Positions 2,511-23,590 of a DNA stretch of 28,149 bases are shown here, piece after piece (the stretch's first letter is position 1; each line of letters begins with the position of its first letter). Below the pieces are notes generated by a model. That model had not been told where the DNA came from and made no database searches. It saw only the letters and a list, made by a program, of their open reading frames with translations. This DNA comes from a virus. Position numbers and translations under genes: made by a program. The DNA lies in IMG/VR virus record IMGVR_UViG_3300020455_000073, positions 1-28,149 of that record; one strand, 5' to 3'.

Positions 2511-3329
2511 TTGATTATACTAACAGGATCAAAAGGATTTATAGGTCAGAACTTTCTTAAGTATCTGATGGAACATTCTGATGAAGAAATCGTTACGGTT
2601 GATGAGCATGACTGTTGGGATTGGATAGCATACTTTGAGGACTGGGATAAAGTATCTCTTATACTACACCAAGGAGCGATCTCAGCAACGACAGAAACAG
2701 ATATAGATAAACTCCATAGAACTAATGTTTGGTTTACTATAGAACTGTTTGAGAAGGCAATAGAACATCAAATAGATGTTAAATTTGCATCATCTGCATC
2801 AGTATATGGCAATACAAGAAAGAGTTTAATGGGAAGTACTCCTAATAAAATATCTCCATTAAACTACTACGCAATTACTAAGTTACAGATAGATTATTAC
2901 ATACAAGATAACCTAGATAAGTTTTCATCTATCCAGAGTTTCAGATACTTTAATGTGTATGGAGAAGGAGAAGATAAAAAAGGAGATCAAGCAAGTCCAG
3001 TTCATAAGTTTACCAAACAAGTGAAAGAAACAGGTAAACTAAAACTGTTTGAAGGTTCAGGTAAATATCTAAGAGATTTTATTTGGGTTGGGGATATAGT
3101 AGAAGTCGTTCTTAATAATGATAAACCATCTGGGATCTATGATCTTGGAACCAGTAACCCAGTTAGTTTTAAACTTGTTGCTGAATTAATAGCAGCAAAA
3201 TATAATGGAGAAATAGAATACATTCCATTCCCAGAACATCTAAAAGGAAAATATCAATATCTAACTATCGCAGAAAAGGTATGGGACTATCAATTTATAA
3301 ATGTAGCACAGTATCTTAATATGTGTTGA
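2511..3329 (+). CDS. hldD: ADP-L-glycero-D-manno-heptose 6-epimerase (HldD-like)
   Basis: This 272-residue short-chain dehydrogenase-type epimerase would convert ADP-D-glycero- to ADP-L-glycero-manno-heptose using bound NADP. The Rossmann motif TGSKGFIGQN is at residues 5-14, the catalytic SSASVYG and YYAITK blocks are central, and the C-terminal half carries FRYFNVYGEG, LFEGSGKYLRDFIWVGD and IEYIPFPEHLKGKYQ. I recall the last three as HldD signatures rather than general sugar-epimerase ones. It is somewhat shorter than bacterial HldD (about 310 residues). The start is TTG with no clear ribosome site. It converges with, and overlaps by 14 nt, the last gene of the opposing sugar operon, which holds the other pathway enzymes. 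A related NAD-sugar epimerase is the main alternative. Confidence 0.85.
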   Translation: MIILTGSKGFIGQNFLKYLMEHSDEEIVTVDEHDCWDWIAYFEDWDKVSLILHQGAISATTETDIDKLHRTNVWFTIELFEKAIEHQIDVKFASSASVYGNTRKSLMGSTPNKISPLNYYAITKLQIDYYIQDNLDKFSSIQSFRYFNVYGEGEDKKGDQASPVHKFTKQVKETGKLKLFEGSGKYLRDFIWVGDIVEVVLNNDKPSGIYDLGTSNPVSFKLVAELIAAKYNGEIEYIPFPEHLKGKYQYLTIAEKVWDYQFINVAQYLNMC

Positions 3330-3882
3330 ATATTAAATTAAAGGATACGGTTTTTCTAATATTATTTGATTTATGAACAGACACCCCATGTAACATATAA
3401 GATGGAAATAATAAAAGCTTACCTCTTTCAGCTCTTATAGATTTTCTATCTCCAGAGAAACCAAGATCTCTCCATTCTCTATGAACCTCTCTGTAACCTT
3501 CATTATAAAAGAAAAATTTACCATCATCTTCTTGTTCATCAGTTAAAAAAAGACATCCTGATAAATGAAAAGGAGTATGATCATGAACTTCCTGAAAACA
3601 TCCTTTCTTATAAGTATTTCTCCAAATTTCATGACAATATATACTAAGATTTGCCTTACGACAATCTAAATCCAATTCATTAAAAAATATACTTAATGAT
3701 GGTTTAAATAATGTAATAAAATCTTCACGTAAATCTAATCTTTCTACTTCAATAGTACATCCATCCACCCAAGAAAATTCTTGATTTTCTGTCAAATTTA
3801 AATTTTCTATATTACTTAATAGATCTTCTTTATTTGGAGGATCTATTAATGAAAAATAATTTTGTGTTATAACGTCAAGCAT
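3316..3882 (-). CDS. 2OG-Fe(II) oxygenase, TIGR02466-like
   Basis: A 188-residue protein from ATG 3882 (TGATG junction with the cupin gene; GGGGG lies just upstream). The core reads QEVHDHTPFHLSGCLFL, then FPSYMLHGVS, then RKTVSFNL. That gives H100 with H102 (or D101) as the proximal metal ligands, H165 as the distal ligand and R176 as the 2-oxoglutarate anchor. The HxH variant of the usual HxD, if real, would be a feature of this subfamily. It is the last gene of the sugar operon and its end overlaps the convergent epimerase gene. The substrate is not known; a sugar, a nucleotide-sugar or a virion protein is possible. Confidence 0.78.
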   Translation of the reverse strand: MLDVITQNYFSLIDPPNKEDLLSNIENLNLTENQEFSWVDGCTIEVERLDLREDFITLFKPSLSIFFNELDLDCRKANLSIYCHEIWRNTYKKGCFQEVHDHTPFHLSGCLFLTDEQEDDGKFFFYNEGYREVHREWRDLGFSGDRKSIRAERGKLLLFPSYMLHGVSVHKSNNIRKTVSFNLIFNTY

Positions 3883-4238
3883 CAATCCCCCCTGAATACT
3901 CTATGTGAATCTAAATCAAAATGTTGTGTAGAAAACTCAAATAATTCAGAATCTTCCATAGCATACATTTGATGTCTCATCTTTCTTTCAATATGAAACT
4001 TATCACCTGGTTCTAAAACTATACTATCAGATAATGCAATATCATTATCAAAACCATAAAAGAGATGTATCTTACCAGACTGTAAGAAAAATGTTTCATC
4101 CTTTAGAAGATGATAATGCCAAGAACATCTCTTACCTTTAACAAAGAATAAAAGCTTACCACAATATTCAGAAGTATTACATATCCACTTCTCATAACCC
4201 CAACCCTTGGGAACAAATTTTATATCATCATTATTCAT
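3882..4238 (-). CDS. Cupin-domain protein, sugar isomerase/epimerase-like
   Basis: A 118-residue single-domain cupin. Motif 1 is intact: H41, H43 and E48 in WHYHLLKDETFFLQSG. Motif 2 has PGDKFH with H82 and a further H89, so a metal site is likely. The opening PKGWGYEKWI and the YHLLKDE block resemble the C-terminal cupin of type II mannose-6-phosphate isomerases and related nucleotide-sugar cupins. It joins both neighbours by ATGA or TGATG overlaps inside the heptose operon, so a step in sugar conversion is likely, but the reaction cannot be told from sequence. Confidence 0.75.
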   Translation of the reverse strand: MNNDDIKFVPKGWGYEKWICNTSEYCGKLLFFVKGKRCSWHYHLLKDETFFLQSGKIHLFYGFDNDIALSDSIVLEPGDKFHIERKMRHQMYAMEDSELFEFSTQHFDLDSHRVFRGD

Positions 4239-4876
4239 ACAAAATTAGGACCTAATCCCCAACCAACTACAACTCTACGTTTACCTTCAGTAACAGGTGT
4301 AACTCTATGTAGAATAAAAGATGGGAATACAACAACCTCACCTCTACCTATTTTAATATAACTATCTTGCACACCATACCTAAACTGTAATTCACCACCC
4401 TCATAATCATCATGATCAGATAGTCCTATAGAAAATGATAACTTTCTCTGAATATGTTGTGCTGATCTAGCAGGAGGATCTATATGCCAATCAAAATGCC
4501 CACTATCTTCTGCATGATATTCGCAATACTGAAAAGATTCCCAACTATCAATTGAATAATTCCAAACATCAGTATTAATATCCCTAATAGTTCTTGTTAT
4601 ATTATCATAAACTGGCATCAATAATTCTTTATCTTCCTCATCAGTTAAGGAATATGTTTTAGTTGTTCTTATACTACGTTTTGATGGTTCTTCTGATGGC
4701 AAATCTGGTCTTGCTGCCCAAGACTCAACTAAAGCATCTTCTAACTCTTTATCCTCAAGAGATGTCTCTATAGATTGTAATACCTTTTCATGAACCATAT
4801 CCTTCAAATGAATAAACCACATCCCATGTGGTTCTGTTGGTGTTATGTAATTAAAATCTTTATAAAAATAACTCAT
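4235..4876 (-). CDS. 2OG-Fe(II) oxygenase, PKHD/prolyl-hydroxylase-like
   Basis: A 213-residue dioxygenase of the prolyl 4-hydroxylase-like class, distinct from the two TIGR02466-type proteins nearby. The proximal ligands are H131 and D133 in FDWHIDP, the distal ligand is H190 in FPSFILHRV, and arginines at about 200-201 (GKRRVVVGW) bind 2-oxoglutarate. Between them lie KLSFSIGLSD and YEGGELQF, typical of the jelly-roll core of this class. Known relatives include PiuC/YbiX-type and P4H-like enzymes. It sits mid-operon with TAATG and ATGA junctions. A protein-hydroxylating role is possible, given the collagen-like fibre gene in the same window, but is not shown. Confidence 0.85.
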   Translation of the reverse strand: MSYFYKDFNYITPTEPHGMWFIHLKDMVHEKVLQSIETSLEDKELEDALVESWAARPDLPSEEPSKRSIRTTKTYSLTDEEDKELLMPVYDNITRTIRDINTDVWNYSIDSWESFQYCEYHAEDSGHFDWHIDPPARSAQHIQRKLSFSIGLSDHDDYEGGELQFRYGVQDSYIKIGRGEVVVFPSFILHRVTPVTEGKRRVVVGWGLGPNFV

Positions 4877-5229
4877 TAAACACCATGACTTTCAAAGAAT
4901 GAATCACATTGCCATCCCTTATCATCTATAAAATAATCAGCATGAGGTTTACCCATAATCAATTCATGATACTTAACACCCCATTCTTTAAGTTGGTTTT
5001 GAGTCAACTCAAATAAAACTCCTTCTGCTTTTACAGAAGCAATAGAATGAGGTTGGTCTGAAAATCTACCCATCGCTCTGGCAGTAAAATATATTATATA
5101 ATTACCTTCATCATATAAAGTATTTATTTTTGCAATACGATCTTTCCAAGGTTCTGCTTTATGGTAATCCCTACCAACAGTTGGACTGCAAATAGTTCCA
5201 TCTATATCAATACAGTATCTTTTGGACAT
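4876..5229 (-). CDS. HAD-family phosphatase, possible GmhB role
   Basis: A 117-residue minimal HAD hydrolase. Motif I is DIDGT (nucleophile D8, acid D10), motif II is FTAR (T49), motif III is K94 in GKPHAD, and motif IV is IDDK (D102, D103). There is no large cap domain, as in phosphatases acting on sugar phosphates. It lies between the heptose kinase and an oxygenase gene, overlapping the kinase gene by 23 nt. In ADP-heptose synthesis GmhB removes the 7-phosphate from heptose 1,7-bisphosphate; this protein could do that. It is shorter than classic GmhB (about 190 residues) and I see no GmhB-type zinc cysteine cluster, so the role rests on context. Confidence 0.75.
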   Translation of the reverse strand: MSKRYCIDIDGTICSPTVGRDYHKAEPWKDRIAKINTLYDEGNYIIYFTARAMGRFSDQPHSIASVKAEGVLFELTQNQLKEWGVKYHELIMGKPHADYFIDDKGWQCDSFFESHGV

Positions 5230-5944
5230 CTTCTTCAGTTAAAATGTAAGTTCCTGGTTGTTGAACTGCAATAGCTGCTGCTCTATTTCCCATCATAAGG
5301 GATTCATCTATGTTGTTAGTAGTTATATACCCGTAGACAAGTGCTGCTAAGAAAGTATCTCCAGCACCAACTACATCATATACATTTACTTTTTCTGCTG
5401 GATATAAGGTTTGTTTGTAAATACAACCTTCAGATCCTTTTGTTACTATTAGATTGTCTATATTATAGTCATCTAACTTCTCATATTCTACATCATTTAT
5501 TTTAATAAAGCAATTAGGTTTATTAGGAAGTATAGATTTTTTACTATCAATAAACACAGGACAAGATGAACTCTCTACAATCTCAAATATCTTTTCTGTA
5601 GATAGATACCCTTTGTTATAATCTGATATAACAACAGCATCAAAACTATCAGTCATTACTGGTATCATAAGAGGTTTTATTTTTTCCTCATTATCAACCC
5701 TAAGTATCTGTTGATTAGATTTCTCATCAATAAATCTTGTCTTAACTAACTGTTCATTATTGGTTAAAAATGTAATATCAAGACCAAATGATTGCAAGTT
5801 TAAACAAACATTACCTGCCATGCCAGAAGTAGTTTTTATCTTAGCATAATCTAGAACAGGCACAGGTGCTTCTGGACTTATCCTATTACATCTACCATAG
5901 ATGTATTCATCTTCACAACTATCACCCAGTAACAGTACTTTCAT
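5207..5944 (-). CDS. hldA: Heptose-phosphate kinase (HldE N-domain type), shortened
   Basis: A 245-residue PfkB-type sugar kinase. Diagnostic HldE blocks are RISPEAPVPV (21-30), GMAGNV (41-46), VVISDYNKGYL, and DVVGAGDTF (190-198) with the catalytic base D196. It would phosphorylate D-glycero-D-manno-heptose 7-phosphate at C1 using ATP. The kinase domain of bacterial HldE is about 315 residues. The missing part lies mainly between residues 60 and 75, where a stretch of some 25 residues seems collapsed to TNNEQ, with further trimming later. The active-site motifs survive, so it is probably functional. It overlaps the upstream nucleotidyltransferase gene by 23 nt: the two HldE halves are separate and in reversed order. 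Confidence 0.82.
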   Translation of the reverse strand: MKVLLLGDSCEDEYIYGRCNRISPEAPVPVLDYAKIKTTSGMAGNVCLNLQSFGLDITFLTNNEQLVKTRFIDEKSNQQILRVDNEEKIKPLMIPVMTDSFDAVVISDYNKGYLSTEKIFEIVESSSCPVFIDSKKSILPNKPNCFIKINDVEYEKLDDYNIDNLIVTKGSEGCIYKQTLYPAEKVNVYDVVGAGDTFLAALVYGYITTNNIDESLMMGNRAAAIAVQQPGTYILTEEDVQKILY

Positions 5945-6338
5945 TAATCTTTTTGATTACATTACTGCTGGCATATCCACCTACTCTAGGAAGATGTCTT
6001 ACCTCACCAGCGTGTTCCCAACCAACTACATCACCATCCCTCCAATCATCACCAAGTAATAATATATCAGGTTGATATAGTTCGATTAGATCTTCTAACT
6101 CTTGCCTACTACCAAAGGTATGAACAACATCAATATACTTGATTGCCTCAAGCATAGCAACCCTATAACAAAGATCGTTTATAGGGCGATGATCACCTTT
6201 GTCAGTCCGAATTTTCTCATCAGTATCCGTAGCAACTATTACTTTCTCTCCTAGAGATCTAGCAACCTTGAATAATTCTATGTGACCTGGATGAAGAATA
6301 TCGAATGTGCCATTGCACCAAACAATATCATTCTGCAT
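5922..6338 (-). CDS. hldC: Heptose 1-phosphate adenylyltransferase (HldE C-domain type)
   Basis: A 138-residue nucleotidyltransferase of the RfaE2 class. NGTFDILHPGH (9-19) contains the HxGH nucleotide-binding motif; KGDHRPIND follows, then LEAIKYIDVVHTF and a closing GGYASSNVIKKI, which takes the place of the STTxII block of HldE. It would transfer AMP from ATP to heptose 1-phosphate to give ADP-heptose. Glycerol-3-phosphate cytidylyltransferase-like proteins share the HxGH fold, but the flanking motifs fit HldE better. Its ATG overlaps the carbamoyltransferase stop (TAATG). The length is normal for the free-standing domain. Confidence 0.85.
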   Translation of the reverse strand: MQNDIVWCNGTFDILHPGHIELFKVARSLGEKVIVATDTDEKIRTDKGDHRPINDLCYRVAMLEAIKYIDVVHTFGSRQELEDLIELYQPDILLLGDDWRDGDVVGWEHAGEVRHLPRVGGYASSNVIKKINESTVTG

Positions 6339-8125
6339 TATAATTTATCATCACCATCTTCACTAAGCATTTTTCCATCATCCTTTTCCATATTAGGACG
6401 ATTTGATTTAATAGTAATTAATTTTTGTATTTCTGGTAAATACATATAATCAATATCACTAGTTGATAAAGTATCTAATGCATCATCAATATCTTCAACT
6501 AAAGGATCTCCCCCAAGATTAAATGAAGTATTAAACAGAATAGGAACATCTGATAGTTTTTCAAAAGCACTAATTAAATTGTAGTAATTCTCATTCTGTT
6601 CTTTAGTAACAGTTTGAATTCTACAAGTGCCGTCAACGTGAATAACTGATGGGATCTTCTCAGCAACTCCAGGTAAAGCATCTACAGCATACATCATACT
6701 TGGAGATTCATCCATTCCAGCAAGATCAAACCAATCATGAACTTTATCTGCAAGAATACTACAAGCAAATGGTCTGAAATATTCTCTATGCTTTACACCA
6801 TTAACGATATCTTTTCCATCTTTAACAGTAGGATCAAAAAGAATTGAACGATTGCCCAATGCTCTTGGTCCACCTTCAGATCTACCTTGGAAAATAGTAA
6901 CAATATTTCCATCTCGAATCAACTTTGCAATTTCTTTATCTGAGGTATCAGATACCTTTGCCTCTGGATATTCTTCTATATGATCAAGATATGTATCTGG
7001 ATCATATTGCGGTCCGTAATATATGTCCTTTGGTGGTTTTATAGGTATGATAGTTTTTCCTTTATTAAAATAATCATGATAATAAACATGATAAGCACCA
7101 CCTATTGATGTTCCACCATCATGAGAAATAGGTTCACAGTAAATATTTAAATTAGGAAAACGTTTTTTAAATTGATAATTTGCAACACAATTCAATCCAT
7201 ATCCACCACATATAACAATATTTTTCTCTCCTGTTATATCAACAGCCTTTTGAATTAAATTACCAATTTGCTCTTCAGATTCTTTTTGAATAGCGTATGC
7301 CATATCTTTTTGAACCTGAGACCATCTAGGTTCTTCACCATCTTGTGGATGTTGCTTAACATCTTCAATAAGAGTAGGATACATCTCATGCATAACATAA
7401 GCACCATTAGGATAATTTGGTTTAAATACATCCCTATTACCAAAACCATTCCTAAACATTGGAGGTATGTCTGGATTTGGTTTTCCGTATGGAGACAATC
7501 CCATAGTTTTTCCAGCATCAATAGACATAAAACCACAATATCTTGTTACTGCCTCATACTCTTTAACTATACCAGGATATTCTGTAGCAAATGTACCTGT
7601 ATCATCATCTAATCTAACATACCCTATTGCTGAATCTGTTCCCAAATGTTTGTAAACTGTTCTCAAATTTAAAGGTTTTTGAGCATGAAAAATAGTTTCA
7701 AATTCAAATATAGTGCCATCAAAAGCTTCTGTATGCAAGAAACTTCCAGCACCATCAGCTATAACACAAGCGGCAGAATCAAATCCAGAATTAATAAATC
7801 CAACATTAGCATGTTGTTCATGATGAATCTGATCAATATATGTTACCTCATAAGTTAACTTCTTTTTACATAACTTTCTCATCCAAGATTTATATAAATC
7901 TTCTCCAGTCCAGTCTGCTTGAGGTCCTGCTCTATGGGTATGACATACAACCAAATGATCTATATGATCAACATAATCAAATACTTTAGTTAATCCCAAT
8001 AAAGGAGTTCCATCACGTTTAAACCTAGATAAACGTTCTTCTTCAAGATAAAATGCTATCTCACCATCAATAAGTAAAGTCGTGCTGGCATTATGCCCAC
8101 GAGAACAAGACAAAATAATACTCAT
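6338..8125 (-). CDS. O-carbamoyltransferase, NodU/CmcH/TobZ family
   Basis: At 595 residues this is a full-length member of a family that activates carbamoyl phosphate with ATP and transfers the carbamoyl group to a hydroxyl, often on a sugar. The N-terminal Kae1-like domain has GHNAS (10-14), the metal-binding HHEQHAN (101-107) and DGAGS (124-128). CGGYGLNCVAN (306-316) and QGRSEGGPRALGNRSIL (413-429) mark the second half, and LFNTSFNLGGDP follows near residue 550. The last 25 residues are acidic and variable. GAGG lies 7 nt before the ATG. It sits between the glycosyltransferase and nucleotidyltransferase genes, so a heptose or another transferred sugar is a reasonable acceptor. Related genes occur in several cyanophages. 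Confidence 0.92.
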   Translation of the reverse strand: MSIILSCSRGHNASTTLLIDGEIAFYLEEERLSRFKRDGTPLLGLTKVFDYVDHIDHLVVCHTHRAGPQADWTGEDLYKSWMRKLCKKKLTYEVTYIDQIHHEQHANVGFINSGFDSAACVIADGAGSFLHTEAFDGTIFEFETIFHAQKPLNLRTVYKHLGTDSAIGYVRLDDDTGTFATEYPGIVKEYEAVTRYCGFMSIDAGKTMGLSPYGKPNPDIPPMFRNGFGNRDVFKPNYPNGAYVMHEMYPTLIEDVKQHPQDGEEPRWSQVQKDMAYAIQKESEEQIGNLIQKAVDITGEKNIVICGGYGLNCVANYQFKKRFPNLNIYCEPISHDGGTSIGGAYHVYYHDYFNKGKTIIPIKPPKDIYYGPQYDPDTYLDHIEEYPEAKVSDTSDKEIAKLIRDGNIVTIFQGRSEGGPRALGNRSILFDPTVKDGKDIVNGVKHREYFRPFACSILADKVHDWFDLAGMDESPSMMYAVDALPGVAEKIPSVIHVDGTCRIQTVTKEQNENYYNLISAFEKLSDVPILFNTSFNLGGDPLVEDIDDALDTLSTSDIDYMYLPEIQKLITIKSNRPNMEKDDGKMLSEDGDDKL

Positions 8126-8134
8126 AATTTAGCC

Positions 8135-9229
8135 TCAAGATTTAGTAGTTTCTAATTCCAATAACTCATCTATTGGTTTTTTCTTTTTCTTTGTTATAGA
8201 CTTAGGTGTTCCAAAATTAATTGGTGCAATTTTTTTAGTTGAAGAATCTCCATATTGTGGTTTCATATTTGAAGGTATACCAGAAAGACCTACATCTGAA
8301 GATGACTTCTTACTAACACCTATCTTATCCTTAATACCCTTTACTAACTGATCAACGGTTTTATCACTTAATACCATTGAATCTTCATTAACTCTATCAA
8401 TACATAAATCCCATGTCAATCTGATCGGACTATATCTTCTTTTTCCTTTACCATTATCAATAATAGTAAATTTCTTACTATCAGGATATGATATATTCTC
8501 TGGAAAAGTAGATCCAACAACAACAGTAGTTGGTTTATCTAAAGAATATGCCATATGTTGCCCAACACTATCACATCCTAAGAAATAATCAGCAGCATTA
8601 ATAACACCCATCCAACCATTAAGACCTAAATTTTTAGGGCAAGCAATTCCTAAACCAGTCCATCCAGGAATCTCAATCTCCGACATAAGAACTATGCCAA
8701 AATTATTTTTCAACTTCTCAATAATACTAAGAAGATTTGATACTTCCATACTTCTACCAGAAGAATCAAATATAAAATTACCTTCAGTCTTAGTTCCTTG
8801 ACCAAAAGGTTGAATAACAACTATCTTATCTTTTCCAGATCCAGCCTTTACTTCAGCAATTATATTATGCCCATTAACCTGATCAGCTTTACTAAGCTCT
8901 AAATTTATTTTTCTAGTTTCAGGAACCTCATCAAGTTCATTAATCTCAATATCAAAAGCCTGTATGAGATTACACTCTTGATTAAAATATTGATTAATCC
9001 TATAAGGTTCTGGAGAAACTATCTCCTTATCTTTTAAATGATCTTCAAATAATCCTTTATGACCTACAGAATATGTTTTATCCCTAAGAACTGGATTATT
9101 TAAATATAACTCATCCCAAGACTCTGATACTATCACAAAATCGTCGTGAGTTTCTGCATACCTTTCTAACGCAGGAATGGAGCAAAGGACACGCCCTGCT
9201 CCACCGTTAATGAAAAAAGCCTTATTCAT
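8135..9229 (-). CDS. Family 9 (heptosyltransferase-type) glycosyltransferase
   Basis: A 364-residue GT-B glycosyltransferase. The N-terminus has a GGAGRVLCSIPAL loop (9-21), which aligns with the acceptor-side glycine motif of ADP-heptose:LPS heptosyltransferases. The donor side has AADYFLGCDSVGQHMAYSLDKP (211-232) and VVVGSTFPENI, equivalent to the DSGPMHLAAALGKP signature of the family. From about residue 315 a lysine/serine-rich tail is added that typical GT9 enzymes lack, ending with a run of five lysines. It is the first gene after the sigma-70-type promoter at 9254-9282 and leads an operon for ADP-heptose synthesis, so ADP-heptose is the likely donor. The acceptor (host LPS, another glycan or a virion protein) is unknown. 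Confidence 0.8.
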   Translation of the reverse strand: MNKAFFINGGAGRVLCSIPALERYAETHDDFVIVSESWDELYLNNPVLRDKTYSVGHKGLFEDHLKDKEIVSPEPYRINQYFNQECNLIQAFDIEINELDEVPETRKINLELSKADQVNGHNIIAEVKAGSGKDKIVVIQPFGQGTKTEGNFIFDSSGRSMEVSNLLSIIEKLKNNFGIVLMSEIEIPGWTGLGIACPKNLGLNGWMGVINAADYFLGCDSVGQHMAYSLDKPTTVVVGSTFPENISYPDSKKFTIIDNGKGKRRYSPIRLTWDLCIDRVNEDSMVLSDKTVDQLVKGIKDKIGVSKKSSSDVGLSGIPSNMKPQYGDSSTKKIAPINFGTPKSITKKKKKPIDELLELETTKS

Positions 9230-9317: not shown

Positions 9318-10400
9318 CTACTGCCAAGATACACAAACCATACCAAACTTACCAGAGTCTCCACAGTTACCAGTACCACCACCCATTGCGTGTGACATAA
9401 ATCCACCAGCACCAGGATATCTTAAGTAACTACTCTGCCAAGCACTACACTGGTATCCACAACAGTTACCACTAGTATAGTTAGGGCAACATTCCGATTG
9501 CATATTTTCACCATAGATAGGTGGGTGTTTTTCCCAACCATAATGGTTACTATTCCAGCACATCCTAGGCCAAATTCCTCGGATACCGTAAACTACGTTC
9601 TCCCATGTTGGACATTCAATACCATAAAGTCCAGCATTAACATCTGATCCAGAAACATAATCAATTATCCCAAAGTTTGGTCCATTAAAGCACCAATCAC
9701 CACCATAGTTACAAATATAAGCACCACTAGAGTCGTTTGTTATTTCTGCAATTCTACAATAACAGAATCCACCTCTCATAGCCATCCAAGTACCTATAGA
9801 TCCTTGTCCTCCATCAGCACAGAACTCACAGAAATGACATCCTTGAACATAAGAAGGACATCCTGCAAGCCTTTGACCTCCAGATGTAGTATATCCATAA
9901 CAGCAATATGCACAACCAGAACATAAAAGATAACACCAACCAGACGATACTGGAATAATTACAGATGCATATGCTCCAGTAGATCCAAATGGTGTATGTC
10001 CACAGCAGCAAGGTCCTTTATTTGCACCACCACCAGAACCCCATAATTGGAATCTAGCTTTGGTTGCACCACCAGGAACATACCAAGTACAACTTCTACC
10101 ACAGCGATAATATCCAGTATCATCGCAAACTTTTATTCCACCAGTCCATCCATCACCTTCATAAACGTGCCATTTACTAGTTTCTGCTGGACACGCCCAG
10201 TGAGCTCGAATACCTTCATTATTACCAGTTGCAAACCATTTCTTAGCACAATCATAAGCAGCACTTGAAGCACCTCCACCACCACTAGCAGCAACGTCAA
10301 CACAATTAGCCTTTAGATCAAATAGTGCTTGACGCTTTTCAGCAATTTCTTTCTTTAGTGCAGCTTGTTCATTAAGAGCACTGTAAACTAATACATCCAT
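9318..10400 (-). CDS. Cysteine- and glycine-rich virion protein, paralogue A
   Basis: A 360-residue protein with 31 cysteines. Residues 1-35 look like a short coiled coil (ALKKEIAEKRQALFDLKAN), followed by a Gly/Ala/Ser linker. A conserved core follows: KVCDDTGYYRCGRSCTWYVP, ARFQLWGSGGG, a CCC cluster, AYASVIIPVSSGWCYLLCSG and SYVQGCH. The end, GKFGMVCVSW, matches the end of the paralogue at 11137-12225. The ARFQLWGSGGG and GAYASVIIPV elements recall glycine-rich fibre tips. Probably a fibre or spike subunit; the cysteines could form disulphides or bind metal. The start follows GGAGG lying within the end of the upstream gene, and the stop of that gene directly abuts the ATG. Confidence 0.75.
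   Translation of the reverse strand: MDVLVYSALNEQAALKKEIAEKRQALFDLKANCVDVAASGGGGASSAAYDCAKKWFATGNNEGIRAHWACPAETSKWHVYEGDGWTGGIKVCDDTGYYRCGRSCTWYVPGGATKARFQLWGSGGGANKGPCCCGHTPFGSTGAYASVIIPVSSGWCYLLCSGCAYCCYGYTTSGGQRLAGCPSYVQGCHFCEFCADGGQGSIGTWMAMRGGFCYCRIAEITNDSSGAYICNYGGDWCFNGPNFGIIDYVSGSDVNAGLYGIECPTWENVVYGIRGIWPRMCWNSNHYGWEKHPPIYGENMQSECCPNYTSGNCCGYQCSAWQSSYLRYPGAGGFMSHAMGGGTGNCGDSGKFGMVCVSWQ
9835..10135. repeat. Duplicated block, copy 1 (cysteine-rich core)
   Basis: Long stretches here are nearly identical at the nucleotide level to 11662-11953, for example around 9902-9985 and 10040-10135, with silent and replacement changes concentrated in a central variable patch. This encodes the conserved core of the two cysteine-rich proteins and points to recent duplication or gene conversion. 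Confidence 0.8.
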
Positions 10401-11136: not shown

Positions 11137-12225
11137 TTAACAGTAAGAAACACATACCATTCCGAATGAACCTACGTCACTGCATCCACTGGTATCTCCA
11201 CCACAAGTAGAGTAACCATATGCACCCATTCCAGGTTTTCTCTTATGAGAGCAATAACATGCTTGATAGCAGCATCCAGTTCCTTCATTATAATGCTCAG
11301 AACAGCAGCAACTGTCTGTAGGGAATCCATAAGTACCAGGATGCCTAAAGCACGTTCCATAGTTTCCAAACTGCCAACGTACGTATGACCATTGTCCAGG
11401 AACTTTATAAACTGGTGCTTGATCAGAGGTTCCATATGCAGTTTTAGTAGATCTTGCTGGTTGATAAACAGCATCTCTAAATCCATTAGGATATCCTACA
11501 CCAGGAATTTCATTTTGATGAGAACAATAATCTGATCCAGTATTACAAATACATCCATAAAGTCCTCTACAAGCACTTAATTGATGAGGTCCTCTATGAC
11601 ACCTATCTCGCATTTCACAATACCGATTGGTTTCACCACCTTCAGCACAGAAATTAGTTAAGTGACATCCTTGAACATAAGATGGGTTTCCATCAGCAGT
11701 GTTCTGTGTTCTCTCTACATAACAACAATATGCACAACCAGAACATAGGAGGTAACACCAACCAGTCGATACTGGAATAATTACAGATGCATATGCTCCA
11801 GAACCACCATTAGTGGAACCACCGCAACAACATCCACTTCCAGCTCCACCACCAGAACCCCAAATTTGGAATCTAGCTTTAGTATAACCACCAGGAACAT
11901 ACCAAGTACAACTTCTACCACAACGATACCAACCAGTATCATCGCAAACTTTAAATCCAGTACTCCAACCAGCAGATCCTTGAGGATCTGCATCAGTAGC
12001 ATCTGGATTTCGTGGAATCATACACCAAATATGATTATTAGGAGCACTAACACCTGGCATAACATCAGCAATGTCTGATGAAGTACTTCCTCCACCACCA
12101 CCGCCACCGCCACCGCCAGATGCGGTTTGAGCTGAGGTTATACCAACAGATAACGCTGCAGATTCTGCCTTTAACTTTTGATTTATCTCCTGTAAGGCAT
12201 TATAGGTTAATACGTCTGCTGCCAT
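11137..12225 (-). CDS. Cysteine- and glycine-rich virion protein, paralogue B
   Basis: A 362-residue paralogue of the protein at 9318-10400, with 32 cysteines. It has a similar short N-terminal coiled segment (YNALQEINQKLKAESAAL), then a run of ten glycines, the shared core (KVCDDTGWYRCGRSCTWYVP; FQIWGSGGG; CCCGG; YASVIIPVSTGWCYLLCSG; SYVQGCH) and the shared ending GSFGMVCVSY plus a terminal cysteine. Between residues 210 and 330 the two proteins diverge strongly, as expected for receptor-facing regions. GAGG lies 8 nt before the ATG. It is the third gene of the late operon that starts at the 12864 promoter. A fibre or spike role is inferred. Confidence 0.75.
   Translation of the reverse strand: MAADVLTYNALQEINQKLKAESAALSVGITSAQTASGGGGGGGGGGSTSSDIADVMPGVSAPNNHIWCMIPRNPDATDADPQGSAGWSTGFKVCDDTGWYRCGRSCTWYVPGGYTKARFQIWGSGGGAGSGCCCGGSTNGGSGAYASVIIPVSTGWCYLLCSGCAYCCYVERTQNTADGNPSYVQGCHLTNFCAEGGETNRYCEMRDRCHRGPHQLSACRGLYGCICNTGSDYCSHQNEIPGVGYPNGFRDAVYQPARSTKTAYGTSDQAPVYKVPGQWSYVRWQFGNYGTCFRHPGTYGFPTDSCCCSEHYNEGTGCCYQACYCSHKRKPGMGAYGYSTCGGDTSGCSDVGSFGMVCVSYC
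11662..11953. repeat. Duplicated block, copy 2 (cysteine-rich core)
   Basis: Partner of 9835-10135. The near-identity covers the segments coding for the WCYLLCSG, YASVIIPV, WGSGGG and YRCGRSCTWYVP motifs. Both copies are in the same orientation with one gene between them, so unequal recombination could delete or fuse the intervening gene. Confidence 0.8.
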
Positions 12226-12886: not shown

Positions 12887-15800
12887 CTAACCTAATTGCC
12901 CAACAAAGAATTCAGAAACCTGAACTTCTTTCCTAAACTCATTTTCCACATCATTTCTCAAATTAGTAATTTCAGTGTTGGTATATGATTGAGCAGATGA
13001 TAAAGTATTAGAAACATCTGTCTGAGTTTGAGATCTTTCAGTTGCTAATCCTGCAGTAGTATGAGACTGTGCCATTAAAAGATGTTCTGCATCTCTAGTA
13101 GCAACATAAGTTCTAACAGCAGCCTGTGTAGGAACTTTCTCATTACTATTTTGTGCCATTGTTCCGTCAGTTGAGAACTCATTAATAGAAGCACCTAACT
13201 GAGCACCGATTGAACCCAATCGAATTGAAGTCAAACCAGATAGATCGAAACTGTTAGCATTCAAGGTTGCAGCACCAGTTGCCTGGTTAACACGGAAATA
13301 TTTACCAACCCTGAAGTTACCTTGTTCATCAGTAGAAACATAGAATACCCTTCCTGGGAAGTCTTCCGTAATTTCTTGAGCCTGAACTGGATCCTGATTT
13401 GGTGCTGCTGGCCAATTAGTTGTATATGTTCCACCAGTTCCTACTTGCAAGAAGTCATGTCCAGTTAATCTTGCCTGACTGAAGATGTAACGAATCTTAA
13501 TGTCCTGTTCGTCAAAGGTTTTATTTGCCTTCTCTTCAACAAGTGTTAGAGTAGTAGTTCCATAAGTATCAGTGTCTCTACCAGTAATTTTCACAAACTC
13601 ATTATCTATCTTTACATAATCTCCAATAGCACCATCAAATCTTACAGATAAAGTTGCTCTAAACGCAGTAGCAATACCAGTGAAATCTTTATTAATTTCA
13701 GCAGAAGCAATTTGATTAGTTTGCCCAATTGAAGTAAATGTATCACCAATACTATATGAATTAGCAGAACCAGCACCATCTTGTGCTCTCTGAATCGTCA
13801 TAGAGTTTGCAGTTGGGAAACTTGTAATTTTACAAAGTTCATTTGTAGGTGATAAACAATATTCACCAGGATTAAATCCACTAATTGTGCTAGTACTAAA
13901 TGTAGTATCACCAGATTGTGCAGGAGTTAGAAGTGTAAATGTACCAGATTGAACAGGATACTGTGTAAATGTAGTAGTTCCACCAGTATGACCTGCACCA
14001 CTAGTAGTCCATTGTCCTCTATCAATGAAAACGTTACCTTTTCCAGTAGGTCCTGTTTGACTTACACCATTAATCACGAATGTAAATGGATCAGCACCAG
14101 TAATGTCATCACTATTATATCCACCATTACCAGATCCAGTAAGAAATTCTATACTACCATTCTCTTCAAGAGTAGGTGTATTTCCTAATCCACTAAGAAC
14201 AAGAACACGACCAGCTTGACCTCTGTTTGCATCAGGGTTATTAATAAGTTGAGCAGTTGTTCCTGAACTCATTGCAGTAATAGTTTCATTTGGAATGAAA
14301 CCAGTTCCAACACCAACAGTATCACCTTCAGTAATTACTGAATAGTAGATTAAATTCTGAGTGGTTCCTTGAACCGAATTAACAGTTCCCCAAGCAGTTG
14401 AACTATTACCTCTAATCCTCTCACCAACTTGGAATCCAGATCCAGACATAGTATCAGTATCAAATTGTAATATTAATCCTTCAATTTCACCATCTCTGGT
14501 TTCCTCTAATGGACTGAATCCTGAACTTACAATACCATATTTACCCCAAGAACTGTTTCCAGCAAGAGATCTAATTCTACCACCACGAGTAGCAGCGTAA
14601 CTAATATGGTTATAGTAGGTGAAGCAAGAAACCATCTCAGCAGTTCCACCATCTGTAACCCAGAATGCCATTCCTTCATCATGAATGTTTGTGAATGAGT
14701 CAAACACAATAGATTTGTTAGAAGGTGTTGCTGATCCATCAACAAATTGTCTATGAATTCCACCATCAACAATTGCACCAATACCTTTAACTGATTTTGC
14801 AGAACAGTTTGATACGTATGGTGATTTAACAATTCTACTTTCTGGGTTTAGAGCAACAAATACACCTTTAATATGTGCGTTATTAGGATCATACTGCTGT
14901 GCAGTAAATGTAAACGTTGTAGAAACATTTTGTTGTATATCAACCTCTATTTGACTAGAACTAATAAATCCAATAACCTTTGTTCCAGTTTGAACACCAG
15001 AACCAGTTACAGTTGTTCCAACTAAATCAGGGAATAAATTCGATGAAGATAATATTGAACCACTAATACTACCAGCTTTAGAGGTAACTGTACCTGCTGG
15101 AGTAAATCCAGTCATATTCTCCATCAAGATGTCTTTAAGCATTGTTGAGTTGCTTAACTGGAACATTGTGGAATGCTTATTCTCTCTTACAAGTGCTGAT
15201 GTAATGCTTATATCAGATCCACCATTCTCCCAAGTATCTGATGTTGTCCAAGCACCACCAGAAAGAGTACGAATTTGAATAGTCTTATCATCATATGATG
15301 AATCTAAAATAACAGCACACTTAGTTGAGTTACCATTAAATATTGAAGAACCATATGAAACTGTTGCAGGTGCATTTGCTAATGTAAGATCTTGATGTGT
15401 AGATAGATTTGCTGCACCAACATTAACAGTAATAGTTGTTCCTGTAGTAGCAGTAATACTTATAAAATTACCAGCTACAGGATCTTTATGTGCTCTTGGA
15501 TAACTCTTAGCCTTATTATGATTATCTAATGAACAAGTAAATCTTATAGTATCATTACCAATCTGAATTGTATTAGAAGTGGTTAAAGAATGAGATCCAA
15601 TCTCTAGGACAAGATTTCCTGTTGTAGAATCATATGTTGTTCCAGCAACGGGTGTTTTTGTTCCACCACCAGTTACAGTAATACAATCCGCATCTGCTGA
15701 TACGAAAGTATGATCATAATGTTCGGCAGCAATAATCTTAGATGTTCTTAAGTTATCTCCAACAATCGATACTCCCTCTGGAACGATAATTGGTAAAGTT

Positions 15801-16903
15801 TCAGCATAAGTTCCTGCTTTTACATAAATTGTTGCAGGACCAGTTGCTATACCACAAGCATGTCTAACTGAATGAAATGACCTACTTATATTTGAACCAT
15901 CATTTTGATTACTTCCTTCTTCTGTTACATAGAAAACTGGATGTGTTACGCTGTTCAATTCCCATTGAGGAATACCATTCTTACTTACAGATAATACTTG
16001 ACCATTATTTCCTACAGGTAATCTTGCAGCACCAGTAGTGTAATAGACCATATCACCTTGAGTGGTCATCACATTGTTGGCAGCACCCTCAGCCAACATA
16101 CTCCAATAAGTACTATTTGAATCTGTTGAAGGATCCTCATTTAAACTACCAGCAGTAGCAACTCCGATATAACTATTACTTAATCTTTTTACAGCATCAC
16201 CTAACTGATAAGTTACTGTAGAATCCCAGTTACCTTTCCAAGCAACACCCTTAGTAACTAAACTCCAATTAGCTTCTGTTGTTGGTACAGTATTAGTACT
16301 TGTTGTTATTGCAACGTATGAATATCCACCATGCAATACAACATCACCTTGCTTATAATCTGTTGAAGAACTCCACTCACCAACTACATTAAATCCTGTA
16401 GTTATAATATCCCAATCATTTGTTAGGTTATATGAAGGTGGCTTATTAACATGAACACTCTTTGCAACATAAGTATAACCACCATATGTTACAACATCTC
16501 CATCCTGATACTGCGTTGAAGCATTCCAAGTATCTTCATAATTAAATGACTGTAAATATTCAACAACATAAAGTGTAGTATCTCCTTCTTCAAATGTTGC
16601 TGATGAAGTATGTCCAGTAACTACTCTATATTGAGTATTACCATATTTGTATATGTCATTTACCTTATACCAAGTACTTGCTTGCCAATCACCCTTATTA
16701 GAAATTCCTTCTGTATGTAAAGTCCAATTAGATGTTAAATCTGAACTGTAGAACTGATTTTCATTTCCAGATGATGTATGATTAGTTTTACAAACGTATG
16801 TGTTTGCACCATATTTTACAATGTCATCAATGACATATGCGGTATTAACTAACCAATCACTACGCCAGTTAAATTTTAATCTGCCAAGTCTAAATTCAGC
16901 CAT
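12887..16903 (-). CDS. Giant tail-fibre or adhesin protein with beta-helix
   Basis: A 1338-residue structural protein. Residues 12-274 hold five related repeats of about 50 residues with the pattern W..ST.Y..GDVV.YGG..YVA, similar to chitin/cellulose-binding-type modules. A GDMVYYTTGAARLPVG element follows (about 283-304), then a pectate-lyase-like beta-helix opening (FYVTEEGSNQNDGS, ATIYVKAGTYAETLP; from about 323). The centre is beta-rich with Thr/Ser/Gly. Near residue 1190 comes QGNFRVGKYFRVNQATG, a block also seen in the protein at the right edge of the window, and the last 80 residues form a coiled coil. It presumably acts in attachment or sits on the tail or baseplate. No lyase catalytic residues are evident. 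Confidence 0.82.
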   Translation of the reverse strand: MAEFRLGRLKFNWRSDWLVNTAYVIDDIVKYGANTYVCKTNHTSSGNENQFYSSDLTSNWTLHTEGISNKGDWQASTWYKVNDIYKYGNTQYRVVTGHTSSATFEEGDTTLYVVEYLQSFNYEDTWNASTQYQDGDVVTYGGYTYVAKSVHVNKPPSYNLTNDWDIITTGFNVVGEWSSSTDYKQGDVVLHGGYSYVAITTSTNTVPTTEANWSLVTKGVAWKGNWDSTVTYQLGDAVKRLSNSYIGVATAGSLNEDPSTDSNSTYWSMLAEGAANNVMTTQGDMVYYTTGAARLPVGNNGQVLSVSKNGIPQWELNSVTHPVFYVTEEGSNQNDGSNISRSFHSVRHACGIATGPATIYVKAGTYAETLPIIVPEGVSIVGDNLRTSKIIAAEHYDHTFVSADADCITVTGGGTKTPVAGTTYDSTTGNLVLEIGSHSLTTSNTIQIGNDTIRFTCSLDNHNKAKSYPRAHKDPVAGNFISITATTGTTITVNVGAANLSTHQDLTLANAPATVSYGSSIFNGNSTKCAVILDSSYDDKTIQIRTLSGGAWTTSDTWENGGSDISITSALVRENKHSTMFQLSNSTMLKDILMENMTGFTPAGTVTSKAGSISGSILSSSNLFPDLVGTTVTGSGVQTGTKVIGFISSSQIEVDIQQNVSTTFTFTAQQYDPNNAHIKGVFVALNPESRIVKSPYVSNCSAKSVKGIGAIVDGGIHRQFVDGSATPSNKSIVFDSFTNIHDEGMAFWVTDGGTAEMVSCFTYYNHISYAATRGGRIRSLAGNSSWGKYGIVSSGFSPLEETRDGEIEGLILQFDTDTMSGSGFQVGERIRGNSSTAWGTVNSVQGTTQNLIYYSVITEGDTVGVGTGFIPNETITAMSSGTTAQLINNPDANRGQAGRVLVLSGLGNTPTLEENGSIEFLTGSGNGGYNSDDITGADPFTFVINGVSQTGPTGKGNVFIDRGQWTTSGAGHTGGTTTFTQYPVQSGTFTLLTPAQSGDTTFSTSTISGFNPGEYCLSPTNELCKITSFPTANSMTIQRAQDGAGSANSYSIGDTFTSIGQTNQIASAEINKDFTGIATAFRATLSVRFDGAIGDYVKIDNEFVKITGRDTDTYGTTTLTLVEEKANKTFDEQDIKIRYIFSQARLTGHDFLQVGTGGTYTTNWPAAPNQDPVQAQEITEDFPGRVFYVSTDEQGNFRVGKYFRVNQATGAATLNANSFDLSGLTSIRLGSIGAQLGASINEFSTDGTMAQNSNEKVPTQAAVRTYVATRDAEHLLMAQSHTTAGLATERSQTQTDVSNTLSSAQSYTNTEITNLRNDVENEFRKEVQVSEFFVGQLG

Positions 16904-20999: not shown

Positions 21000-22841
21000 T
21001 TAAGAGATCGACATTCCACTAATGGATGCTTGTCCATTATTAGCAAATGGATTATATAAAATTCTACGAGGAGAACTCTTCAAACTATAAGTACTACCCC
21101 AGTAATTTGAATCGGTAGAACCATTACTTTGATATGGATCATAAAAATCTGTCGAAGGAACTTCCACAGAACCATGAGTTAATAACCAATTCCTAGCTTC
21201 TGCTCTTGTAGATTGTGGTTGAGATTCCAGATACAACGCCATCACACCACATACTTGAGGTGTTGCCATACTAGTTCCACTTATAGCATAATTATAAAAA
21301 CTATTGTTTCTTGGATCAGAATATCCAGTAGCATATGGACTAAGAATATTATGCCCACCAGACCAAACATCAATAGCAGGTCCTCTATTACTAAAGGAAG
21401 AACATCTTTCTTGAGATCCAGATTGTCTAGTAACATCTATAGATCCAACAACAATTGCAGCATCCTCTTTATCTTGATGTGTAATTGCAGGAGTTCCACC
21501 TCTATTATAATAACTTAAATGACCACTAGTATAATAAAAAGTACCAGAAGTTACTTCATTCATATAATCTTTTCCACCTGGATAATCTTGCTTATCGTCA
21601 GAATTACCTGCAGCGAAAACCCATACAATATCCTTACAATCAGGATCATCAAATACCTCATCAGCCTCAGTCTGACCAGATGTTCTAGTAGTAGTGAATT
21701 GATTATAAACTGAACTCAGTTGTGACTGATAATAAACTGCAGGAGCAACAGTAGAAGTTATTTGAGAATCACTATAAGAAGATCCTCTAAAATTAACAGT
21801 ATGACTTAAATCATTACGAAAAAATTGTCTATGTCCCCAACTACCATTAACAACTGTAGGATTTCTTCTACCTGTTACTGGATTAATTGGTTTATTTTTA
21901 TGCCAAACTTTAATATAATCAAATCCATCTGATGGTTCAGACCATCCAAGATCACTTCTATCAACACAAGCAACAGTCCATATGTTTGCTTCAAAAGCAT
22001 GACCAAACTGATTACCAGCAGCAGTTCCAGCACAGTGTGATCCATGATGGTTTGCTAAAGCATTACTTTGATTACCAAATTCATGCATCAATAAAGCACC
22101 AGCAACATTATAATTTGCAAATGATCCTGATCCAGGAGCAACCAAACCTTCACTAGCCCAATTAATACCATACTCAGATTGACCATGAATTAATATATCT
22201 CTAACTCTACTCTCAGTTTCACAAGCTAAACTATTTGCAACAGATGTATATCCTGGTTTTAAAAATTCTGGATGATTCCAACGAACCCCAGTATCCATAA
22301 TAACAACATCAACATTCTTTCCTGATAATGTATATTCTAAATCACCGTAAATGTATGTTTGAGATCCAAAAGCATCTGTATTATTCCTTTTACTATGCCT
22401 CAATAAACCCCATTGAGTAAAATCTAAAGTTGTTCCTGGATTACCTCCACCACCAGAAGCATCTCTTCTATTCTCAACATTATATTTAAATCTATTTGTA
22501 GTTAAATGACTATCAAACTCTTGATCATATTTTCTCTGTTCTAATTCATACTCATTATATAAACTAGATCTTTCAACCCATTCAACCTTAGAATGATTTC
22601 TTAATATCTCTGCCTCTGCAGGAGACATTTCATATACACTCCTCTTGGGAGAACACTTCATCTCTGAAGTACAATCAATCTTCCTGTTTGGAATATCATC
22701 TATATTATTTTCAGTGATTATATAATCATGAATCTCTTGCCAATCTGCAGCATCTTTTACGCAAACTGCATATGCCTGTTGAGTGTCAGGATATACAACA
22801 AGAACTCTTCCAGTATTTGAATCTAATGTTGTGCTAATCAT
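21000..22841 (-). CDS. Subtilisin-like serine protease (S8 family)
   Basis: A 613-residue protein with a complete subtilase catalytic triad: D183 (VVIMDTGVRWNHPEF), H266 (NHHGSHCAGTAAG) and S524 (ISGTSMATPQV), plus the oxyanion asparagine N413 (VFAAGNSDD). Residues 1-130 form an extra N-terminal domain ending in a glycine run, possibly a propeptide or a virion-anchoring part. A 50-residue tail follows the catalytic domain. There is no signal peptide or transmembrane helix, so it is probably carried in the particle or acts in the host cytoplasm. Its neighbours on both sides are fibre genes (TAATG junction with the collagen-like gene), which suggests that it processes fibres or cuts host surface proteins. 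Confidence 0.88.
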   Translation of the reverse strand: MISTTLDSNTGRVLVVYPDTQQAYAVCVKDAADWQEIHDYIITENNIDDIPNRKIDCTSEMKCSPKRSVYEMSPAEAEILRNHSKVEWVERSSLYNEYELEQRKYDQEFDSHLTTNRFKYNVENRRDASGGGGNPGTTLDFTQWGLLRHSKRNNTDAFGSQTYIYGDLEYTLSGKNVDVVIMDTGVRWNHPEFLKPGYTSVANSLACETESRVRDILIHGQSEYGINWASEGLVAPGSGSFANYNVAGALLMHEFGNQSNALANHHGSHCAGTAAGNQFGHAFEANIWTVACVDRSDLGWSEPSDGFDYIKVWHKNKPINPVTGRRNPTVVNGSWGHRQFFRNDLSHTVNFRGSSYSDSQITSTVAPAVYYQSQLSSVYNQFTTTRTSGQTEADEVFDDPDCKDIVWVFAAGNSDDKQDYPGGKDYMNEVTSGTFYYTSGHLSYYNRGGTPAITHQDKEDAAIVVGSIDVTRQSGSQERCSSFSNRGPAIDVWSGGHNILSPYATGYSDPRNNSFYNYAISGTSMATPQVCGVMALYLESQPQSTRAEARNWLLTHGSVEVPSTDFYDPYQSNGSTDSNYWGSTYSLKSSPRRILYNPFANNGQASISGMSIS

Positions 22842-23590
22842 TATACTCCCTCTATTCTAGTGAAAACATATTCTAAATTCCCAGTAATTGCATTTTCTGG
22901 GGTAGCATTTATAGTGACCTCTCCATTAAAAATAGATGATCCAACAGAAACTAGTAAATCATTACCAGTATATGTTATAGCATATTCTTGGGTCTGAGTA
23001 TTGGTTCCATCATGAACTACAGTAACCTTCTGGGACTGTTTACCATAAGTTCCACTACTAAAATACAATGTATAATCTGCTATCTCATTAGTTAAAGCAA
23101 TATTATCTAACCGATGAGCAACAGTTGGTGAAGCAGTCCAGTTTCCAGAACCAGTTCCAACACTACCACCACCACTACCACCAGATCCAGGAGGACCAGC
23201 AGGACCAGGAGGACCAATAGCACCATCATTACCATCAGCACCTGGAGGACCAGCAGTTCCAGGAGAACCAGAAGGACCAGCAGGACCAGAAGGACCAGCA
23301 GGACCTGGAGCACCAGTGGGACCTGTAGGACCACTAACACCAGAAATTCCACTTAAAGATGATCCATCACCATAATAACTTCCAGCAGTCACAGAAGATC
23401 CTACTGATACATTTTGAACAACTTCTAAATCATAAAAATATGAAACTCCTGTTGTAGAAATACCTGGAATGGTGGCAGCATTAATTGTAGATATACCAAC
23501 TTTCCAGGTTGATCCATCCCACTTCCACGTTATATCATTTGCAGAATGAGTATCACCTACACTTGGATTGCTTGGAAAATTAATAGCCAT
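22841..23590 (-). CDS. Collagen-like fibre protein
   Basis: A 249-residue structural protein. Residues 1-80 have two short fibre elements ([20 protein letters not shown], which attaches such proteins in many cyanophages, and [11 protein letters not shown]). Residues 81-134 are 18 uninterrupted Gly-X-Y triplets, three of them GPP, that should form a collagen triple helix; a Gly/Ser hinge follows. The C-terminal 100 residues are a beta-rich tip ([35 protein letters not shown]). A homotrimer is expected. Five of the triplets have proline in the Y position, the site hydroxylated by prolyl 4-hydroxylases in animal collagen. The ATG follows AGGGG. Confidence 0.87.

Follow-up and report, generated by a model that had tools for sequence, protein, structure and literature searches.

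A heptose gene cassette is already known in the cyanophage P-SSM2 and its relatives. Excerpts of a survey from 2010 report that the clusters T4-GC 304, 305, 307 and 308, are found together, along with three further ones, in P-SSM2, S-SM2 and S-SSM7; these clusters comprise a nucleotidyltransferase, a kinase, a cupin and an epimerase, and their functionality was left undecided there (PMC3037559). T4-GC 307 is the cupin according to the record notes; the cupin of P-SSM2 has the accession YP_214543. An excerpt of a commentary refers to viral enzymes of ADP-heptose synthesis reported in 2024 (PMC11461863). Here, we analyzed a virus record of 28,149 bases (IMG/VR record IMGVR_UViG_3300020455_000073; termed the window in the following), which is a fragment of a P-SSM2-like T4-type cyanophage and carries such a cassette at positions 2511-9229. 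We think it rather likely that this cassette specifies a complete route from sedoheptulose-7-phosphate to an activated glycero-manno-heptose, in which a cupin isomerase stands in for GmhA, together with a transferase and a carbamoylating enzyme. This reading draws on gene content, conservation, co-occurrence, archaeal fusions, the exclusion of GmhA in one archaeal class and an active-site match. The locus would then be a phage cassette of an established type, whose first step probably has a new enzyme.

A heptose cassette with a cupin proposed for its first step

Over 82% of a 7.1-kb query, the island DNA shares 83% identity with P-SSM2 and P-SSM5. An earlier reading of the sequence, the first-pass annotation, had named six genes here, which are indeed open frames inside the island, and residue conservation and recurrence argue that they are not there by chance. 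This annotation overlooked the cupin and two 2-oxoglutarate (2OG)-Fe(II) oxygenases. On the minus strand, from 9229 down to 3316, the genes encode a GT9-like protein, a carbamoyltransferase, a nucleotidyltransferase, a PfkB kinase, a HAD phosphatase, a 2OG oxygenase, the cupin and a further 2OG oxygenase, tightly packed or overlapping. The HldD-like gene, with TTG as its start codon as read, converges on this run from the plus strand. Named phages and IMG/VR contigs contain the cassette as well. That its genes are filler DNA, a possibility raised in 2010 in the excerpted text (PMC3037559), or functionless relics strikes us as hardly credible: the frames are intact and overlapping, the core recurs in two contexts, and each family, aligned over 49 to 69 sequences, keeps its catalytic residues.

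The enzyme activities, cupin substrate and sugar destination given below are predictions. The cupin would isomerise sedoheptulose-7-phosphate in place of GmhA, the PfkB kinase would phosphorylate C1 and the small HAD protein would take off the 7-phosphate. The HldC-like enzyme would then activate the sugar with ATP, perhaps also with CTP or UTP, and epimerisation at C6 would fall to the HldD-like enzyme. In the version of the cassette found beside fibre genes, the GT9-like enzyme would attach the sugar and the carbamoyltransferase would carbamoylate it. A TalC-type transaldolase, which is able to make sedoheptulose-7-phosphate, is present in all ten phages, and talC is described in excerpts of the 2010 survey as common in cyanophages generally (PMC3037559). 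A transketolase was also considered as a local source of this precursor in P-TIM68 and S-SM2 and rejected; the proteins match E1_dh and Transket_pyr.

The cupin accompanies the phage cassette, and no GmhA was found

The first-pass annotation held that only GmhA was missing. For the SIS family this is true of the window and of ten complete phages: a search with SIS_2 (PF13580) gave no match in the window fragment and none in the ten complete cassette-bearing phage genomes at an E limit of 10, at which all 14 control genomes match, nine of them above the cut-off. A GmhA profile built from six sequences likewise found nothing in 79 IMG/VR loci. In substance, however, the statement is probably wrong, with the cupin as the likely replacement. 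The label 'phosphoheptose isomerase' in phage records was rejected as evidence of GmhA; it is a mislabel that sits on the HAD protein (L080-L089), with no SIS domain found. For the cupin itself, most labels read cysteine dioxygenase, nucleotidyltransferase or hypothetical, and one record says cupin.

A kinase match occurs in 37 phage records, 31 of which are cyanophages or marine viruses (at least 40% identity), the other six being Salmonella, Listeria, faecal and uncultured records. The cupin is present in all 31 of the former, a number that includes repeat isolates and double records, and in 35 records altogether. In Bellamy and SynMITS9220M01 it lies between genes annotated as kinase and nucleotidyltransferase. 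Within the IMG/VR set, 64 of the 79 loci carry the cupin, as do 62 of the 67 that extend for at least 2 kb beyond the kinase on the downstream side. A variant cassette was also observed (L029, L030, L033, L043, L044, L046), which consists of nucleotidyltransferase and kinase, joined on the longer contigs by GT9, carbamoyltransferase and two unknown proteins; no HAD, cupin or epimerase lies nearby on these short contigs.

The cupin retains the contact residues of D-lyxose isomerases

The cupin comprises 118 residues. No Pfam model matches it above cut-off, while PF07883 and PF07385 (D-lyxose isomerase) match weakly, the latter with 16.6 bits against a cut-off of 20.8. According to excerpts of the work on the Thermofilum D-lyxose isomerase, sugar and metal are contacted by K62, H75, H77, K86, E88, H143, E156 and D163, and activity depends on the equivalents of K86, E156 and D163, whose loss abolishes it (PMC8378251). 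HMMER alignments place K28, H41, H43, K46, E48, H89, E101 and D108 of the phage cupin, in this order, at the eight contacts (numbering offset of 24, derived by hand). The first seven positions do not vary among 32 phage sequences, nor among 18 phage, bacterial and archaeal sequences, and the eighth is D or E, with N in one row. The chance that at least seven of eight random positions are invariant is 0.0014 for the 32-sequence and 3e-5 for the 18-sequence alignment; four of the eight contacts are metal ligands common to many cupins.

Searches of solved structures point in the same direction. Of the four PDB entries that match a phage cupin profile best, three are isomerases of L-ribose or D-lyxose (E about 0.001), and Foldseek with the predicted cupin model (predicted local distance difference test, pLDDT, 91.3) returned D-lyxose isomerases at ranks 1-4 and 6. 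D-lyxose, D-mannose and D-glycero-D-manno-heptose have the same configuration at C2-C4. A lyxose-type isomerase would thus have the right stereochemistry for the GmhA reaction.

The remaining enzymes form a divergent branch of the heptose families

The best NCBIfam match of the kinase, the nucleotidyltransferase and the epimerase is a heptose model in each case, in line with the HldA-, HldC- and HldD-like identities given earlier, although all three stay below the model cut-offs. The epimerase scores 210.6 bits against TIGR02197 (HldD; cut-off 274.6), and its nearest solved structure is E. coli HldD (1eq2, E 6.4e-44). In the readable rows of a 59-sequence alignment, Y120 is kept in 59/59, K124 in 58/58 and K157 in 59/59; we take these to be the catalytic Tyr, Lys and second Lys by their roles in E. 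coli HldD. The kinase reaches 151.1 bits with TIGR02198 (HldA; cut-off 345) and keeps Asp196 of its GAGD motif in all 69 aligned sequences. The nucleotidyltransferase reaches 104.6 bits with TIGR02199 (HldC; cut-off 181.5), with H16, H19 and R118 each present in 60/60 sequences. Judging from these data, the three enzymes appear to form a divergent phage branch. Synthesis of ADP-heptose by the cassette seems well supported.

An excerpt of the commentary on Tang et al. links an arginine of STTR5 to the use of CTP and UTP (PMC11461863). R118 of the phage nucleotidyltransferase might lie at the place of this arginine, a weak indication since the phage motif is ASS and the consensus STT. The HAD protein, which the first-pass annotation put in the GmhB position, is a HAD phosphatase with D8, D10 and D103 conserved in 50/50 sequences. 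No GmhB model of NCBIfam matches it at E 0.01, where only EcbF-BcbF and BT0820-type models appear; the match to TIGR01689 (EcbF/BcbF) is weak against a cut-off of 162 bits, and the protein also resembles a capsule biosynthesis protein.

In some archaea, the cupin is fused to pathway enzymes and excludes GmhA

Scanning genome contigs with two peptide patterns yielded 53 loci with cellular cupins, 20 of which hold a kinase or nucleotidyltransferase match. HldA-like kinases of Woesearchaeota and other DPANN archaea (L133, L136, L140) carry the cupin as their C-terminal domain and score 321-343 bits with TIGR02198. In another DPANN protein (L138) it is the middle part of a GmhB-cupin-HldC fusion. 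SIS_2 gave no match in eight of ten such genomes (G012, G015-G023), and the matches in the two remaining ones, in frames of 583 and 619 residues, are taken for GlmS.

Among the 188 genomes of the class of G016, HldC is present in 19. Ten of these hold the cupin only, six GmhA only, none both and three neither (one-sided Fisher p 0.003, kinship not corrected for). When the six genomes that had entered through the cupin search are dropped by hand, p is 0.049. The cut-offs behind these counts were at least 140 bits with TIGR02199 for HldC, at least 100 bits for the cupin, and at least 60 bits with SIS_2 in a frame below 260 residues for GmhA; they were chosen after viewing the listings from which the counts were taken. 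In all 188 genomes, the cupin is found in 14, GmhA in 26 and both in none, and in four of the 14 with the cupin, no HldC match reaches 140 bits. Gene order within the class is illustrated by L202, in which cupin, HldD, HldA and a GmhB-HldC fusion follow each other, with HldD, HldA and GmhB (TIGR00213) above and HldC below the cut-offs. At L204, from the same class, a GmhA (TIGR00441, above cut-off) sits beside HldC and HldA.

Several observations weigh against the isomerase assignment and the pathway built on it. A wider cupin profile puts a quercetinase first in the PDB, over the cupin core only, with D-lyxose isomerase next after the quercetinases at nearly full length; as the quercetinase match spans the core alone, we did not adopt this function. 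The fold by itself is insufficient to assign the cupin, the 50 listed rows being close in Z (13.9-15.8), and no phosphate-binding site was shown for it. The kinase, nucleotidyltransferase, epimerase, HAD and GT9 scores are all under curated cut-offs, which leaves the carbamoyltransferase as the sole cassette enzyme above them. Five of the 67 IMG/VR loci with at least 2 kb of downstream sequence lack the cupin and carry the variant cassette, which has no HAD and no epimerase either. As many as 33 of the 53 cellular cupin loci are without a kinase or nucleotidyltransferase match, some on short contigs. Only about 1.9 overlaps of cupin and GmhA are expected by chance in the 188 archaeal genomes, so the exclusion is informative mainly within the HldC-positive ones. 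Finally, the genomes of L090, L091, L097, L100 and L103 hold GmhA too; at L103, cupin and GmhA lie about 15 kb apart on one 57-kb contig, with a second kinase-nucleotidyltransferase gene beside GmhA.

Such genomes with both proteins, and the many cellular cupins outside heptose clusters, speak for an alternative in which a host GmhA supplies heptose-7-phosphate and the cupin acts otherwise, for example by isomerising or epimerising the sugar at a later stage. A GmhA-like SIS_2 match was indeed counted from the listing in 49 of 300 genomes of the Prochlorococcus family of G007 (at least 46 bits, frames of 190-309 residues). Together with the closest named phages infecting Prochlorococcus, this count also renders shaky the earlier premise of a Synechococcus host without heptose. 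However, most of the 300 sampled genomes are without such a match, the cupin of HldC-positive archaea substitutes for GmhA and does not accompany it, the archaeal cupin is fused to pathway enzymes, and the cupin keeps the ketol-isomerase active site. Because of the archaeal data in particular, we regard supply by the host as unlikely.

Less probable still is that the cassette makes a different activated sugar, as might be read from the scores under the heptose equivalog cut-offs, the short kinase and a HAD of the EcbF/BcbF rather than the GmhB type. The heptose models are nevertheless the best NCBIfam matches of three enzymes, and this cupin is accompanied in archaea by HldA, HldD and GmhB that score above their cut-offs. 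We retain glycero-manno-heptose as the expected product.

The cupin family is broader than the heptose pathway, since some members occur in other contexts. The cupins of L106 and L111 lie near GDP-mannose-4,6-dehydratase-type genes, L106 (7009-9696) also containing an HldE-like fusion; this setting is perhaps a modified-heptose cluster. In Prochlorococcus AG-409-P03 (L101:9980-10324) the neighbours of the cupin are genes for a DegT aminotransferase and a radical SAM protein, with no heptose genes. Separately, L090, L091, L092, L096 and L141, titled as archaeal, planctomycete and Rhodobacteraceae metagenome-assembled genomes, carry the phage-type cassette at phage-level scores and look like misbinned phage contigs.

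The sugar may be destined for the phage fibres

The GT9-like protein belongs to the phage family phrog_8954 of unknown function and reaches 17.9 bits with PF01075, short of the gathering score of 22. Its predicted model (pLDDT 86.3) matches GT9 structures at Z 19.6-22.6 and 10-16% identity, with the next fold class at Z 12.5; of the 11 top-ranked VIA rows (Z 22.6-18.7), eight belong to GT9 and the other three to NDH-PSI supercomplexes. Thus, the earlier assignment to the GT9 heptosyltransferase type is borne out by a predicted fold that is GT9-like, while the family score falls short. The sugar O-carbamoyltransferase was named correctly, passing both Pfam cut-offs (Table 1). Where IMG/VR loci extend 5 kb or more to the upstream side of the kinase (55 loci), both genes are present in 42, neither in 13 and just one in none.

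The core cassette occurs in two settings. In the first, it lies beside fibre or neck genes with the GT9-like and carbamoyltransferase genes; in the second, it is part of glycan clusters with other glycosyltransferases, where these two genes were not found. TibC, a heptosyltransferase of the GT9 fold for which the PDB has a complex with ADP-heptose, acts on a protein. Fibre decoration is plausible because of the fibre setting, the TibC precedent and the oxygenases near a collagen-like fibre gene. Protein heptosylation by aah is also mentioned in the excerpted commentary (PMC11461863).

With the same enzymology, the heptose might instead go to the host envelope and block superinfection. Surface change of this kind has been proposed for the lipopolysaccharide (LPS) genes of P-SSM2 (excerpt of PMC2984593), carbamoylated heptose is known from Pseudomonas LPS (excerpt of PMC8005017), and the second setting is a glycan cluster. 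We take the envelope as a serious contender that falls short of even chances: the GT9-like and carbamoyltransferase genes travel together and are seen in the version beside fibre genes, and TibC offers a precedent with a protein target. The phage fibre is thus somewhat more likely as the destination.

More tentatively, these cupins of about 118 residues, which cyanophages and DPANN archaea have in common, may form a family that evolved as a second solution to the first heptose step and replaces GmhA through a metal-dependent mechanism of the lyxose-isomerase type. It could enable these phages to make ADP-heptose without host heptose genes and to place it, carbamoylated, on their own tail fibres, a combination that we hold to be possible rather than likely.

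Features of the island and its surroundings

Table 1 Genes of the heptose cassette, with positions in the window.
Feature	Position	Strand	Basis
HldD-like ADP-heptose 6-epimerase (predicted)	2511..3329	+	TIGR02197, alignment to 1eq2, conserved Y120/K124/K157
2OG-Fe(II) oxygenase, variable passenger	3316..3885	-	PF13759 48 bits; absent from some related loci
Cupin, proposed sedoheptulose-7-phosphate isomerase replacing GmhA	3882..4238	-	contact positions, co-occurrence, archaeal fusions
2OG-Fe(II) oxygenase, variable passenger	4235..4876	-	PF13640 53 bits; in minority of related loci
Small HAD phosphatase, proposed GmhB-step enzyme	4876..5229	-	TIGR01689 30.9 bits (below cut-off); phrog_1238
PfkB kinase, HldA-like, short (245 aa)	5207..5944	-	PF00294 73.7 bits; TIGR02198 below cut-off
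HldC-like nucleotidyltransferase	5922..6338	-	PF01467 63.9 bits; TIGR02199 below cut-off
NodU-type O-carbamoyltransferase	6338..8125	-	PF16861 190.9 and PF02543 65.2 bits, both above cut-off
GT9-like (heptosyltransferase-fold) glycosyltransferase	8135..9229	-	PF01075 below cut-off; fold match

The island is flanked on one side by a frame at 2176-2424, read as glutaredoxin-like, whose P-SSM2 counterpart is annotated nrdC, and on the other by fibre genes. The window holds three exact copies of the T4-type late promoter TATAAATA, against 4.9 expected, with none directly upstream of the cassette; we therefore make no claim on the timing of expression. Directly adjoining the cassette are the genes of two Cys-rich paralogues (9318-10400 and 11137-12225) that belong to phrog_35878, a family of unknown function, with a third gene between them. 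A tail fibre at 12887-16903 contains three CBM_5_12 carbohydrate-binding stretches, and a subtilase (PF00082, 21000-22841) lies within the fibre gene block. The collagen-like fibre gene (PF01391) is located at 22841-23590. Besides the two 2OG-Fe(II) oxygenases of the cassette, the window encodes a third at 286-870; hydroxylation of the collagen-like repeats by these oxygenases is a testable idea.

Comparison with known systems

If true, our reading supplies the enzyme for a supposedly missing step and a second, unrelated family for entry into heptose synthesis. The old question of whether the cyanophage 'LPS' genes are functional or filler would become testable with one small protein. Surveys based on GmhA would overlook such pathways in viruses and archaea, and current annotation misses the cupin. 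A cupin acting as sedoheptulose-7-phosphate isomerase was not found among the listed matches in the open-licence literature, which does not prove novelty.

The core genes of the cassette are shared with that of P-SSM2 and P-SSM5 (T4-GC 302-308). P-SSM2 differs in its oxygenases: the two that the window has between HAD, cupin and epimerase are missing, and a different 2OG oxygenase adjoins the epimerase. With the bacterial GmhA-HldA-GmhB-HldC-HldD pathway, the phage cassette shares the order of reactions and the HldA-, HldC- and HldD-like enzymes, whereas it has no SIS-type GmhA, its HAD protein falls outside the GmhB family and its scores are below the cut-offs. The cupin has the fold and counterparts of the eight contacts of D-lyxose isomerases (Thermofilum 7nzo, B. 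subtilis 2y0o), but it is 118 rather than about 175-200 residues long, is 22-27% identical to them and would be expected to act on a phosphorylated substrate. The GT9-like protein shares the fold of WaaC, WaaF and TibC at the low identity given above. Finally, the carbamoyltransferase WapO of Pseudomonas is, as in the phage, encoded with heptose genes, and carbamoylated heptose is a known type of product according to the excerpted source (PMC8005017); the similarity of WapO to the phage enzyme is assumed at the family level.

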